From NCBI GenBank assembly GCA_002724245.1, contig PBOG01000268.1:1-33579 (forward strand): a stretch of 33,579 bases of DNA, read 5' to 3'. A program made the position numbers and the translations under genes. Below the pieces are notes generated by a model that saw nothing but the letters and a program-made list of their open reading frames with translations, was not told the DNA's origin and did no database searches. Shown here in pieces: positions 1-27,398 of this stretch (position 1 is the first letter of the stretch; each line of letters starts with the position of its first letter). The DNA is from Planctomycetaceae bacterium (GTDB lineage: Bacteria; Planctomycetota; Planctomycetia; Pirellulales; Pirellulaceae).

Positions 1-2
1 CA

Positions 3-158
3 GCTGCTGCGGCACGTCAGGGCCTATATGCGAGTCGATGTGGCCCTACTGCGGCCGACATGGTTTACGGTGCTCAGTGGCGTGACTGCCTGACAATTAG
101 CGGCGCCGCTGTTGAACTGCAAATAAACAGAAATAGAAATGAAAGAACCAAACAATGA
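3..158 (+). CDS. C-terminal end of a gene cut by the window edge, probably phage-related
   Basis: Frame 3 is open from the window edge to a TGA at 156-158 and gives about 51 residues ending RNRNERTKQ. The stop overlaps the next start in an ATGA arrangement (155-158), typical of translationally coupled genes and of packed phage gene orders; this is the main reason to choose this frame. The other two plus-strand frames are also open for about 90 bases, so the choice is not certain. The fragment is too short to assign a family. A head-tail or minor tail protein would suit the context, but that is a guess. Confidence 0.42.
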   Translation, partial: AAAARQGLYASRCGPTAADMVYGAQWRDCLTISGAAVELQINRNRNERTKQ

Positions 159-586
159 ACGTATCACGTGGAATTAAATTCACTCGGGTACTCGACGCCG
201 TGGCGGCGGGCACCAGCGACCAGAACTCATCTTCCGTGGATATGAAAAGTTTCGACGCCTGCACATTTGTAATCGGTTTTGGTGCGATCACAGCGAGTGC
301 TGTTACATCCGTGAAAATCCAGGGCAGCGACGATGATAGTGCCTGGTCTGATTTGACGGGCACTGCAATCACTGTTGCTGACTCTGATGATGACAAGATT
401 GTTCTTGCCGAAATCAATCAACCACAACAACGCTATGTGCGATGCGTGGTCGACCGTGGAACGCAGAATGCTGTGATTGATTTCGCGGTAGCACTGCAAA
501 GCCAGGCCAGTGTGGCGCCGGTCACCCAATCGGCAACGGTGCTCGGTTCTGAATTTCACCAGGCGCCGGCTGCCGGCACTGCGTAG
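155..586 (+). CDS. Small phage-structural-like protein
   Basis: The 143-residue product has no signal peptide or membrane segment. It is rich in Asp, Ser, Thr, Val and Ala and looks all-beta: a core with GAITASAVTSVKIQGSDDD, then SAWSDLTGTAITVADSDDDK, then a strand containing RYVRCVVDRGTQNAVIDFAV. This layout of a noisy-signal beta domain with YVR..VDRGT..AVID near the end is one I associate with small head or tail-region proteins in planctomycete prophages. The ATG overlaps the upstream stop (ATGA), so translation is probably coupled; no strong Shine-Dalgarno is visible. The exact virion role cannot be told from sequence. Confidence 0.7.
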   Translation: MNVSRGIKFTRVLDAVAAGTSDQNSSSVDMKSFDACTFVIGFGAITASAVTSVKIQGSDDDSAWSDLTGTAITVADSDDDKIVLAEINQPQQRYVRCVVDRGTQNAVIDFAVALQSQASVAPVTQSATVLGSEFHQAPAAGTA

Positions 587-731
587 AGGGAGTAACCACC
601 ACTGACCATGCTCCGGACCGGTGGTGTTATGGAGGCCTCGAGTTGTCGCCGGTGCCTGGTCGGTCCGGTTGCGAGGTTTTCCCCATAACAGGTGGCCGCC
701 TTGAAAACACTAGGGGCGGAAGACGTACACT

Positions 732-752
732 GCCCTGGGCTTGCTCCAGGGC
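732..752 (+). promoter_or_regulatory. Hairpin upstream of the small ORF
   Basis: GCCCTGG (732-738) and CCAGGGC (746-752) form a perfect 7-bp stem with a 7-base loop. It ends 12 bases before a GGAGGG ribosome-binding site (765-770). No T-run follows, so it is not a classic terminator. It may be leader structure or part of an element-end recombination region. The role is unknown. Confidence 0.25.
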
Positions 753-776
753 GGTCACCTTATTGGAGGGCGCAGG

Positions 777-947
777 ATGAAATACGCAAAACGTCCGGAC
801 CCGACTCCCGAGGAGATCCAGGAGCGATGCGGATTTCCAGAGAAGGGCCAAAAAAATCGGCTAGGCAAAACGCCGCGCCATGGCTTCGGCTGTGGCGTGT
901 GTCGTCTTCGCGTAGCGCTCGGTAGTCGTAGACCTGGCGTGCCCTAG
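777..947 (+). CDS. Small hypothetical ORF, possibly a degraded gene
   Basis: ATG at 777 follows a good ribosome-binding site (GGAGGG at 765-770, six bases before the ATG). The 56-residue product starts MKYAKRPDPTPEEIQERC. The PxPEEIQERC stretch resembles the start of short planctomycete accessory proteins that carry an EEI-x-x-RC helix. After about residue 28 the frame runs antisense into the 3' end of the recombinase gene (overlap 861-947), and the C-terminal half looks like shadow sequence. It may be a real small element-encoded regulator, or the 5' stub of one truncated next to the integrase. Function unknown. Confidence 0.3.
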   Translation: MKYAKRPDPTPEEIQERCGFPEKGQKNRLGKTPRHGFGCGVCRLRVALGSRRPGVP

Positions 948-2060
948 CAGGGCTTGCGTCCCCGCGTGGGAGCCTCCCGGCGCGTTAAATGTCCGTGTAC
1001 CGAACGCGTGCCGTAGTTGATGCGGGAACCAACGCGGAATCCCCTCACGCTTGCAAATCCGCCTAATCCGCTTCTGTAGGGTTCCGGAGTCCCACGGGCG
1101 CCCGCCGCTGTCAGCGCGTCCGCCGCGAGCCGATAGCGGCACGTGTGGCCTGGTAAATACGTGCTCAGATTTCTTTTTGCCCTTCATAGCTCGCTCGAGC
1201 ACCGCGATAGCCTCCGGCCCAAAATAGACAATCCGTTGGTGTCCGTGGTGCGCCGTCTTGTGGGCGTCGCCAAGGTCGTAAATCCACAAATCCGGCCGCA
1301 CTTTCTGAACGTCGCCCACCAATAGCTTAAACAGTTCACCGGAACGCGCGCCGGTGTGCCAGAGCGCGTCGATGATGTACTGACCCTCTAGCGGCAGATG
1401 ATCGCGGGTTGCGCGGTAGTCTTCCTCTGGAACCGGGTCCACCTTCTTTGCGGGCCTCGCGCCCTTGCGCAGTCGTTTCAGCGCCCGCAAGTCCAGCCAC
1501 ACGCGCCGCTCTACGTAATCCCGATCTTTCCCCCACCCAAAAATTGCGCGGATTCTGGTGATCTGTCCGTTAATCGTGGTCAGATTATTATCGGCGCGAA
1601 TAAACAATTCACGCACGTCCTCAAGATCGGGCACCGTGATCGAGTTAGCTGGCCGGCTGCCGACAACGTAACAGAGCCGCGCCATAGCCGTGCAAAAGCT
1701 GGCCCACTCCCATTTGGAGTATTCGCGCTGTCGGCGCTCCGTGAATTTGTCGCACAACTCCGCAACTGTCATGCGGTCACCTATAGGGCCGTCCCTATCG
1801 GGCCCTGGCTCCGGCGCCACGTCGTCGCCGATCACCCACGGGGGTACGTCCCCAAACGTCAGATAGTACCCAAGCGAACGCTCAAACGCGGCGCGTGACT
1901 CTGGGGAGTTGTATTCCCCCGGCAACCACTCCTCATAGCGCTTATGGTGCCTGCCTCGTGGGTAACGAATCGTGCCCCGGTTGCGTCTCTTGTGGTGCTG
2001 ATATTTCAGGCTTCGAGACTTGCGACTGCGGCGCGTAGGCTGAGACAATTTTGCAGACAT
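861..2060 (-). CDS. int: Tyrosine recombinase / phage integrase
   Basis: The 399-residue product is a site-specific recombinase that cuts and rejoins DNA through a covalent 3'-phosphotyrosine link. Residues 1-45 are very basic (RRSRKSRSLKYQHHKRRNRG). A SAM-like core-binding domain spans about 96-190 and the catalytic domain about 205-395. The catalytic set is complete: Arg239 in HTGARSGE, Lys268 in the beta-hairpin, His347 and Arg350 in HQLRHAFG, His374 in LLGHARSTTTERY and nucleophile Tyr383. ATG at 2060 is preferred over an upstream TTG at 2084 because AGGGGA lies 8 to 13 bases before the ATG. The gene sits at the element edge beside the truncated DUF1501 gene, so it is the likely integration enzyme. 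No excisionase gene is visible. Confidence 0.93.
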   Translation of the reverse strand: MSAKLSQPTRRSRKSRSLKYQHHKRRNRGTIRYPRGRHHKRYEEWLPGEYNSPESRAAFERSLGYYLTFGDVPPWVIGDDVAPEPGPDRDGPIGDRMTVAELCDKFTERRQREYSKWEWASFCTAMARLCYVVGSRPANSITVPDLEDVRELFIRADNNLTTINGQITRIRAIFGWGKDRDYVERRVWLDLRALKRLRKGARPAKKVDPVPEEDYRATRDHLPLEGQYIIDALWHTGARSGELFKLLVGDVQKVRPDLWIYDLGDAHKTAHHGHQRIVYFGPEAIAVLERAMKGKKKSEHVFTRPHVPLSARGGRADSGGRPWDSGTLQKRIRRICKREGIPRWFPHQLRHAFGTRTFNAPGGSHAGTQALLGHARSTTTERYAKTTHATAEAMARRFA

Positions 2061-2097
2061 GACACACGTTCCCCTATGAAACAACAGAAGTTTCCCC

Positions 2098-2135
2098 GCT
2101 TATGGCGGCGCGCCGCCATAAGCCCCGGTTTTTTT
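2098..2135 (+). terminator. Perfect 26-bp palindrome followed by seven T
   Basis: Bases 2098-2110 (GCTTATGGCGGCG) are the exact reverse complement of 2111-2123. Seven T follow at 2129-2135 after a five-base spacer. Read on the plus strand this has the form of an intrinsic terminator at the element edge, shielding it from or insulating the flanking host gene. Read on the minus strand it lies 38-63 bases upstream of the integrase start. An integrase arm or core site or an operator is therefore also possible. Perfect symmetry with no loop is unusual for a plain terminator. Confidence 0.45.
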
Positions 2136-2210
2136 AGAGGAGCGAACCGCCGACACTATGCGTTTGATTACTGGTTTTCAAGGGGTCGATAGATTCACGG
2201 AGCCGTTTAG

Positions 2211-3395
2211 GTGCCGTATGGCATGAAACCGCACGCACCGAGCGAAGTGCGGGGAGATTTTCGATCGATCGCGACCAGGGTCCCGGGTCTCGGCATCTGC
2301 GAACATCTTCCGCGGGTAGCCCAAATCGCGGACAAACTGACCATCATCCGCAGCATGCACCACCGGATGCGTGACCACAACGCGGCTGCCGTAGAAGCGT
2401 TATGTGGCCGTGCACCGACACAAGGAGACGTCACCTTCCTGGTAGACGATGCCAACAGCTTCCCCAATTACGGCGCGGTACTGAGCTATCTCAAACGGCG
2501 CGATCCGGAACGGTTGCCACACGTCGCACTGCCACACGTGATGTATCGCACGGTCAAACTGCCTGGGCAATCGCCCGGATTTCTGGGTAACGCGCATGGT
2601 CGGTTGCAAATCACAGACGACCCCAGCGCCGCGACTTTTCGAGTCAGGCAACTCGATCTACCCCATGACATGTCCACCAATCGCATTGGCACACGCCTTG
2701 CCTTGCAACAGGTCTACAACACCCACGCCAACTCACTAGGCCGCCACGCAGACGCCGCGGCCGCCGGACGCAATTACCAACGCGCCTTTGACCTGTTGCG
2801 CTCGGACGCCTTGCGGACCGGATTTGACCTTTCGCAAGAGTCCGCCAGTACACGTGCTCGTTACGGACATCACAAACATGGGCAAAGCGTCCTGATCGCT
2901 CGCCGGCTCGTCGAATCGGGGGTGCGTTTCATTAACGTCAACCATCGGCAGTTCAACGGCGGCAGTGGCAGCAATTGGGATACGCACTTTGACAATTTCT
3001 CTCCCCTCAAGAACACCCTTTTGCCGCCAGCGGATCAGGCGCTCTCAGCACTCGTGAGTGACCTCGACGAAAGGGGGCTGCTGGCCTCCACCCTGGTGAT
3101 CGCCATGGGCGAGTTCGGTCGTACACCACGCATCAACAAGTACGGCGCCCGGGACCATTGGCCTGACTGCTATTCGGTGGTCCTGGCTGGCGGCGGCCTG
3201 CACCCAGGGCGCGTCTACGGTGAAAGCGACCGACTGGGTGCGTATCCAGCTGCCAACCCTGTCACACCGGCCGATCTGGCGGCAACCCTCTATTGGCGTT
3301 TCGGCATCGACCACACAATGCTATTTCGGGACCACCAGCAGCGGCCCTACCGTCTGGCAGAAGGGGAACCACTGCGTACCCTCTTTGCGGTCTGA
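2211..3395 (+). pseudogene. 5'-truncated DUF1501 gene, interrupted by the element
   Basis: DUF1501 proteins are Tat-exported members of the alkaline-phosphatase/sulfatase-like fold and usually have about 420-480 residues. This frame opens with an unconvincing GTG at 2211, three bases after an in-frame TAG, and enters the family at MKPHAPSEVRGDF. In intact members this follows the Tat signal and the GGPSxxDTxD strand. About 60-80 N-terminal residues are therefore missing. The rest is well preserved: GICEHLPRVAQ, HHRMRDHN, LIARRLVESGVRFINVN, VIAMGEFGRTPRINKYGARD and LAGGGLHPGRVYGESD, through to a normal C-terminus. It should be non-functional as an exported protein. The missing 5' part, and perhaps a heme-protein partner, are predicted beyond the left end of the element. 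Confidence 0.85.
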
Positions 3396-3511
3396 CTGGC
3401 TACCGGCAGTCCCACCGCCGCTTGCCCCTGGCACGAACACGATCGACCGACGGCGCAGCCCGACCGAAAACACCGCCGGTGCCCGTTTCCGCACCGCAGC
3501 AACTCGCCTCT

Positions 3512-5818: not shown

Positions 5819-6245
5819 TTCCCACCTTGATTTCGAGTTCCCACTGCCAATCCAGTTTGATCCCATGACCGAGCTGACAAAATCAACTCTAGCGTCCCCT
5901 ACCGCTCAAGCTGCGTCGAGAGACCGCCGGCCCCGACACGGACGGCAGCGAACTGAAGCAGGCCTGCCGTAATGTACCACCGAAGCCGTCAGGTCGTAGC
6001 TTCAGCACCGACCCGCTGCTCGCAACCGCGACTCCAGAAATCTCCGAGGGCACACACCGCTGCGCAAACATCTATATTGATAGCGACTGAATACGCCAAC
6101 CGCAGCGACCGCACGCGCCACGGCTGCTGCTCTGCCACCAATGGTGGGAATGGTATCGCTTCTCTGACAACGGCGGAAGACCATGAGTTCGGCCAAAATT
6201 AGAGAACCCTCGCAACGACAGGGCAACAGGGAAGGACGGTTTCCG
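5819..6245. other. Divergent intergenic region (LamG gene and sialidase gene)
   Basis: This stretch carries no convincing gene in any frame. It must hold the promoters of both flanking genes. A TATATT hexamer near 6072 is -10-like but has no good -35 partner. The 13-base palindrome at 6135-6147 is listed separately. An in-frame ATG at 6183 preceded by GGAAGA could serve as an earlier sialidase start. Confidence 0.5.
6135..6147. promoter_or_regulatory. 13-base palindrome, operator-like
   Basis: CCACCA and TGGTGG flank a single central A, giving a perfect dyad about 100 bases upstream of the sialidase start and in the divergent promoter region. It has the size of a dimeric repressor site, but no regulator gene is in the window. 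Confidence 0.25.
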
Positions 6246-25967: not shown

Positions 25968-27398
25968 TTACACTAGAATGTCATGGACCACGTTGCCATG
26001 GACATCGGTCAACCGGAAGTCACGCCCGCTGTAGCGATAAGTCAAACGCTCGTGATCGAGTCCGACCAGATGCAAAATCGTCGCGTGCAGGTCGTGAATG
26101 TGTACCTTGTTCCTGGTGATGTAAAAGCCGAACTCGTCGGTGGCACCGTAGGTGGTTCCCGGCTTCACCCCCCCCCCGGCCAACCACATCGTAAAGGCGT
26201 GCGGATGATGATCTCGGCCAGCTCCCTGAGCCGTTGGTGTGCGGCCAAACTCGCCCCCCCACACGACAAGTGTTTCCTCGAGCAATCCGCGTTGCTTGAG
26301 ATCGCCAAGCAACGCCGCCACCGGCTGGTCGCAACTTGCAGCTACCTTTTCATGATCTCGCACGTTGGCGTGGCTATCCCACTTGCCACTCACGTTCGCA
26401 ACGACATAGCGCACGCCCCGTTCCACTAGCCGCCGTGCCAACAAGCATTGCTGGGCGTAGTCTCTGGTCGTCTTCTGATCCGTGCCGTACATTTTGTGAA
26501 TGGCCGCTGACTCGCGTGACAAGTCGAACGCTTCCGGTGCTTGCGTCTGCATGCGGAAAGCGAGTTCAAAGGCGGCAATGCGTGCGTCCAGTCTGCTGTC
26601 GTCTTCACGACCTCGGCGATGAAGCTCACTGAAGCGACGTATTGCTGCCAATCGTTGAGCCTGAAACGGTTTCGCTACGGGCATTTCCAGATTGTCGATC
26701 GGGTTGTCGACGTCGGTAATCGCCACTCCTTCAAATGCCGCAGGCAGAAACGACGAACTGTAGGGCACTTTCCCAGGCAAGTCGTTCTGGCTTCCAATGG
26801 AAACAAAGCCGGGCAAATTGTCCGCCTCCGAACCAAGTCCATACAATAACCACGAGCCCAGACTTGGGCGAGGCAGCACGCCATCGCCAGTCGTCAGTTG
26901 GCGAATCGCCCCACTGTGCTCAATCTGATCGCAATGCATCGATCGAATCACGCACAAATCGTCTGCACAGCGGCTGAGATGTGGCAGCAACTCACTGATG
27001 ACGATGCCAGATTCCCCATGTCGTCGGAACTGATGCGGCGACGGACGACAATTGGGGGTTGAATCGCGCGTGATCCGCGGCAACTTGACGGGAATTTTCT
27101 GTTTTGCGTATTTGTTCAGCGTCGGCTTGGGGTCAAACAGATCGACCTGTGATGGTCCCCCACCCATAAACAAAAAGATCACGCTCTTCGCACGAGGCGG
27201 GTGATGCGTCTGTTTGAATGCAAGCGGGTTCGCTGAGGCAGTCGACTCCTGAGCCAACATCGCAGCGAGAGAAACCAATGGGAAACCGGAGGACACCTGA
27301 CGCAGCATGTCCCGACGACCTAGTTGCCGGTAGCCCAACGCCTTCACAAGGGGATGCCTGGTACTTTCGGTCGACAATCTGCTCAAGAATGTGTTCAT
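25968..27398 (-). CDS. DUF1501 protein, Tat-exported partner of the PSCyt1 protein
   Basis: The 476-residue product has a Tat-like start (LGRRDMLRQVSSGFPLVSLA) after about 27 polar residues. The complete family layout follows: SVIFLFMGGGPSQVDLFDPK, LPHLSRCADDLCVIRSMHCD, LLARRLVERGVRYVVANVSG, KWDSHANVRDHE, VVWGGEFGRTPTAQGAGRDH, WLAGGGVKPGTTYGATDEFG and LTYRYSGRDFRLTDVHGNVV. DUF1501 proteins belong to the alkaline-phosphatase/sulfatase-like superfamily, but reaction and substrate are not established. The gene follows the PSCyt1-DUF1549-DUF1553 gene on the same strand after about 100 bases, the standard pairing, so cotranscription is likely. Compared with the truncated copy at 2211 it shows what that copy lost: the Tat signal and the GGGPSQVDLFD strand. 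Start 27398 is accepted, though a later start before the RR pair is possible. Confidence 0.93.
   Translation of the reverse strand: MNTFLSRLSTESTRHPLVKALGYRQLGRRDMLRQVSSGFPLVSLAAMLAQESTASANPLAFKQTHHPPRAKSVIFLFMGGGPSQVDLFDPKPTLNKYAKQKIPVKLPRITRDSTPNCRPSPHQFRRHGESGIVISELLPHLSRCADDLCVIRSMHCDQIEHSGAIRQLTTGDGVLPRPSLGSWLLYGLGSEADNLPGFVSIGSQNDLPGKVPYSSSFLPAAFEGVAITDVDNPIDNLEMPVAKPFQAQRLAAIRRFSELHRRGREDDSRLDARIAAFELAFRMQTQAPEAFDLSRESAAIHKMYGTDQKTTRDYAQQCLLARRLVERGVRYVVANVSGKWDSHANVRDHEKVAASCDQPVAALLGDLKQRGLLEETLVVWGGEFGRTPTAQGAGRDHHPHAFTMWLAGGGVKPGTTYGATDEFGFYITRNKVHIHDLHATILHLVGLDHERLTYRYSGRDFRLTDVHGNVVHDILV

Follow-up and report, generated by a model that had tools for sequence, protein, structure and literature searches.

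A tyrosine-integrase element that probably split a planctomycete DUF1501 gene at a protein-coding attachment site

At one end of the window, by which we mean the whole contig of 33,579 nucleotides that was analysed (C237 of the draft genome G000, which comprises 7.79 Mb in 287 contigs and is a bin with 3.29% contamination), a DUF1501 gene is broken directly to the right of an integrase gene, and its missing 5' end lies on a second contig of the same genome, C231. These two junctions are best explained, with a probability of about 0.92, by integration of a tyrosine-integrase element, probably a prophage or a remnant of one, at a protein-coding attB within the DUF1501 gene. The element's own tyrosine recombinase would have crossed its attP with attB inside the gene, leaving attL on C231 and attR in the window, with the leader and first strand of the gene on one side and the remaining ~370 codons on the other. 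In the integrated state the gene would be broken and its function presumably lost, the 5' piece running into a chimera and the 3' piece lacking an export leader, and excision at the core, should the element still be mobile, would restore the reading frame. The features on which this reading rests are collected in Table 1.

Table 1. Features of the element end, the attachment cores and the split DUF1501 gene (window coordinates unless a contig is given)
Feature	Position	Strand	Basis or remark
C-terminal end of ORF cut by contig start	1..93	+	translation
Phage-type ORF within the element	155..586	+	phrog_5707, E 1.3e-13, a PHROG without assigned function
Tyrosine integrase gene	861..2084	-	PF00589, E 3.3e-17; phrog_1 integrase, E 2.1e-37
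Element right end between integrase and attR	2061..2221	.	non-coding
26-base perfect palindrome, then T run	2098..2123	.	contains 16-base motif GGCGGCGCGCCGCCAT
Possible restart, GTG (2211) or ATG (2223)	2211..2223	+	ORF list; would give a leaderless DUF1501 protein
attR core CATGAAACCGCACGCACCGA	2222..2241	+	18/20 vs attL
attL core CATGAAACCCCAAGCACCGA	G000:C231 228-247	-	partner of attR
3' part of split DUF1501 gene	2222..3395	+	Pfam hit, blastn to intact relative; open to natural stop

The ORF at 2211-3395 on the plus strand covers positions 21-388 of the 390 in the Pfam DUF1501 profile, its homology setting in at base 2222 with profile position 21; the other DUF1501 gene of the window (25968-27398, minus strand) covers positions 1-390. 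The blastn alignment with an uninterrupted gene of G085, a genome of the same genus, begins at window position 2222 as well, and the protein of that gene is 76% identical, in agreement with the initial annotation, which had described DUF1501 homology starting abruptly at about 2222 beyond an integrase. The missing part is located at the edge of C231, a contig of 6,236 bp, where the leader and GGPSHVDLWDMKPQAP are followed by unrelated sequence. When the genome was queried with residues 1-76 of the G085 protein, the top of the 141 listed matches was C231 238-429 on the minus strand (E 7.5e-17), the next paralog following at E 7.4e-11. The 5' piece forms a chimeric open frame of about 135-140 codons that reads ...PIQACILIYYFGGPSHVDLWDMKPQAP, then TINQPPRKRQ, with no further DUF1501 sequence, and its leader is, judged by eye, twin-arginine-like (NRREVLLGG). 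Because this complementary fragment ends at the very codons where the 3' part in the window begins, the abrupt start of the DUF1501 homology is neither chance nor simple decay. The proposal that an element edge had split a DUF1501 gene is thus borne out by both the 5' fragment and a short direct repeat on C231. That the part in the window starts without leader or first strand also stands, but the core is not absent from the 5' side: the 5' fragment carries the MKP-x-AP codons too, and about 20 bases (2222-2241) are present on both sides.

When the halves are joined at the core, they form a single frame with the terminal stop only, in which 332 of 459 aligned residues (72%) are identical to the intact G085 protein and for which dN/dS against the G085 gene is about 0.10, with dS saturated. 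In-frame rejoining of the halves together with a shared core is what site-specific integration of an element predicts. The intact gene of G085, which belongs to the same genus and another species, spans the core uninterrupted and provides the aligned relative in which the match runs across it. Flank synteny with G085 did not establish continuity, as the neighbours differ on both sides, and no conspecific genome lacking the element was found. Decay in which no integrase took part, a deletion or an unrelated insertion having cut the gene with the integrase as a chance neighbour, could invoke a DUF1501 gene on C223 whose truncation falls almost at this position and near which no integrase was read. 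Against such decay, the halves of the split gene together lose nothing and overlap by the 20-base repeat, both are still open and under apparent constraint, and the distance from integrase to core equals that of the relatives to their tRNA, which makes this explanation extremely unlikely.

The core common to the two breaks is a 20-base imperfect direct repeat, CATGAAACC-C/G-CA-A/C-GCACCGA, and both mismatches between attL and attR fall at codon third positions. Its codons, DMKP-x-APSE, follow just after the conserved GGPSHxDxxD strand. No pair among 200,000 random same-register 20-mer pairs reached 18/20 (the maximum was 14), and none did among 3,000 random pairs of 80-bp segments from C231 and C237. 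At 26 other sites in G000 the sequence differs from the core by <=3 mismatches, and at least 10 of these sites belong to DUF1501 paralogs, where they cover the same codons; a reversed-pattern control gave 1 match, compared with 28 in total for the core pattern.

A rival explanation is an assembly chimera, in which phage contigs were falsely joined to DUF1501 pieces at a block conserved among the paralogs. In its favour, G000 contains at least 127 DUF1501 genes, and the end of C150 and the start of C111 (L101, L105) do fall inside this conserved block, which breaks assemblies. A false join, however, needs a longer exact match than the junctions offer, the longest exact runs common to the two being 9 and 7 bases, and both joins would have had to strike the same codon, leave complementary halves in frame and, towards the element, each have the 16-base motif; we consider a chimera very unlikely. 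The truncated DUF1501 genes at C150 and C111 were rejected as insertions, both being contig ends, and they look as if the conserved block, or insertions in it, break the assembly. As a separate observation, the DUF1501 5' fragment on C223 (L102 2779-3201, minus strand) is cut after LKPKTPA, nearly at the core position. Behind it comes a dispersed ~70-bp repeat, with another copy at L102 735-805 and partial copies at L074 11718-11764 and window 6062-6096.

The integrase of the element to which we attribute the split is 407 aa long from a TTG start, with an internal ATG at 2060 as another possible start. Its residues R247, K276, H355, R358, H382 and Y391, which we take to be the catalytic residues of a tyrosine integrase (R, K, H-x-x-R, H/W, Y), are all identical in the closest relative among the matches listed, the 43% identical integrase of G033 from the same genus. 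Relatives were collected at a threshold of 1e-26 with <=4 or <=7 best candidates per genome, so that some may be missed. The family, order and phylum searches returned 40 loci other than its own, and in 31 of these a same-strand tRNA lies immediately upstream of where the integrase starts; a strict rule gives 28/40, L027, L031 and L097 having been added with a tRNA that overlaps the called start. In three of the nine loci without tRNA (L019, L095 and L096) the upstream sequence is limited to 19, 67 and 163 bp. For named genomes the proportion is 13/15, two of these 15 loci appearing to repeat others (L114, the G033 contig, and L116, the G003 contig). The tRNA end mostly lies 90-145 bp from the integrase start in the relatives, and about 140 bp separate integrase start and DUF1501 core in the window; the core therefore occupies the position that the tRNA end has in the relatives. 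These tRNA-associated planctomycete integrases thus resemble that of the window in their Pfam and PHROGs families and in the distance from start to att, and differ from it in target, tRNA as against DUF1501 codons, and in descent: in a tree of 42 rows, whose bootstrap is not settled, the integrases of the window and of G033 pair with each other on a long stem, separate from the remaining 40. The initial annotation had called a protein-coding gene, rather than a tRNA gene, an unusual target, which holds for the sampled integrase relatives but not for integrating elements generally, since PMC12884075 assigns 56.6% of genomic islands to tRNA/tmRNA genes or intergenic sequence, with many others in protein-coding genes.

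The G033 locus has no called tRNA and adjoins a 5' piece of tRNA-Leu(GAG), matched at 36/39 bases, that stops after the anticodon loop; upstream of the integrase, G033 and the window have only short chance-level matches in common. This neighbourhood of the closest relative, a related integrase end on contig C25 that lies ~120 bp from a tRNA-Leu gene, and the single DUF1501 insertion seen would all fit a true integrase insertion at a one-off secondary site, the regular target being a tRNA-Leu gene as in the closest relatives. Such a secondary site is unlikely, if not negligibly so: only 2 of the 20 bases distinguish the attL core from the attR core, and neither core resembles the three tRNA-Leu genes tested beyond shuffles (best 10-11 of 20, with 793-1842 of 2000 shuffles equally good), likeness at chance level for which the core as a tRNA-Leu copy was rejected. 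Since both parental cores persist in attL and attR after a reciprocal exchange, attP and attB would have matched at ~18/20, barring later mutation; for this one element, a regular target in DUF1501 is therefore likelier than a chance secondary site. Two further loci may be noted here. In G000 a second integrase N-terminus (L073 1-750, on C25; 35% identical) sits at a contig edge, and the tRNA-Leu near it, tRNA-Leu(TAG), has its 5' end facing the integrase, opposite to the usual orientation. In the element of the G033 relative a Prim-Pol/DUF3987 primase-helicase follows the integrase (L074 14704-17145).

The two ends of the inserted element share a motif in addition to the core. The exact sequence GGCGGCGCGCCGCCAT occurs in G000 at two places only, C231 74-89 near the left end of the element and window 2102-2119 near its right end (on both strands, within the palindrome). 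The right-end palindrome has a fold z-score of -3.38, and the C231 copy, at -0.45, folds no better than shuffles; an Rfam scan of window 1-3400 gave no match at E <=0.1. Strong hairpins between att region and integrase start were seen in 3/3 same-genus loci (z -6.2 at L074 12455-12560 in G033, -3.4 at L073 540-620 on C25 and -3.4 in the window) and are perhaps terminators or recombination sites. The junctions are on separate contigs, and the element is seen as a left end of ~228 bp and a right end of 2.2 kb, with the middle unassembled.

The element is probably a prophage or its relic. The phage-type ORF has a 26% identical relative in Synechococcus phage Sc-Yong805-2, where it lies immediately downstream of the gene for the major capsid protein; a viral-contig match for the same ORF (L110) was dropped, as it extended over 17 residues only and the large protein concerned is unrelated. 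The ORF cut by the contig start gave no match to PHROGs up to E 1, and one might guess from synteny that it is a capsid protein. Neither capsid PF05065 nor portal PF04860 was matched in the G000 bin, with controls positive in 4/14 named genomes each, and the element body is therefore either absent from the bin or has capsid and portal proteins of other families. The integrase was found in none of the viral contigs searched, and a phage collection returned three weak matches to it, 23-28% identical. If the phage-type ORF is indeed a post-capsid gene, a head module would adjoin the integrase without intervening tail genes (window 1-860), and the element could possibly be a capsid-bearing satellite.

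The initial annotation had gone further and proposed DUF1501 genes as a preferred site through which an element family could spread among the paralogs. Nothing shows such a family: the genome holds one full-length close integrase, and G033 carries its integrase beside a tRNA-Leu fragment. No integrase relative was present in viral-labelled DUF1501 loci (0/80, the best 80 of 146, a set biased to full-length DUF1501 genes), and none of 59 other integrase-bearing loci has a DUF1501 gene within 5 kb, two of them having any such gene at 5.4 and 6.9 kb. Repeated independent insertions in DUF1501 genes were not found among these loci, the window being the one case. The third-position mismatches in the core and the at least 10/26 near-core sites at the same codons of paralogs suggest a further, rather improbable idea, namely that the core of attP was itself copied from DUF1501 coding sequence and that the integrase moved from tRNA genes to the conserved DUF1501 strand; if this were true, the element would have many near-cognate sites, and paralogs could be switched off and on.

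Insertion of mobile elements in protein-coding genes is an already known kind of event, and it is DUF1501 as the target that is apparently unreported: literature searches on DUF1501, integrases and planctomycete prophages listed no title that points to an insertion into DUF1501. Reversible interruption of a protein gene is familiar as active lysogeny, or regulated gene integrity, for example with a prophage in comK; the present case is alike in principle, and here there is no sign of regulated excision or host benefit. In PMC6329079, DUF1501 appears in a gene table. Islands and prophages with tyrosine integrases and protein-coding attB sites, as mapped with TIGER/Islander (PMC12884075), share with the window an integrase beside att, a short identity block and a split gene; unlike the cases mapped there, the target is a DUF1501 gene and attP brings no replacement end that restores the gene. 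The helper-embedded PICIs (PMC10111431) are likewise similar, in that an integrase clade, there with repeated tropism for protein genes, has left tRNA targets for coding sequence and the gene stays split until excision, but they comprise 491 cases at 14 late-gene sites of prophages, whereas here one case in a chromosomal gene is at hand.

Taken together, the two junctions locate precisely the protein-coding attB of one planctomycete element, and the gene that contains it belongs to a family of well over a hundred copies per genome. The contrast within the genus between tRNA-Leu, beside which the closest relative lies, and DUF1501 codons could be used to study how integrases change their targets and, should further cases come to light, this conserved strand of DUF1501 would offer a route to many sites in one genome.
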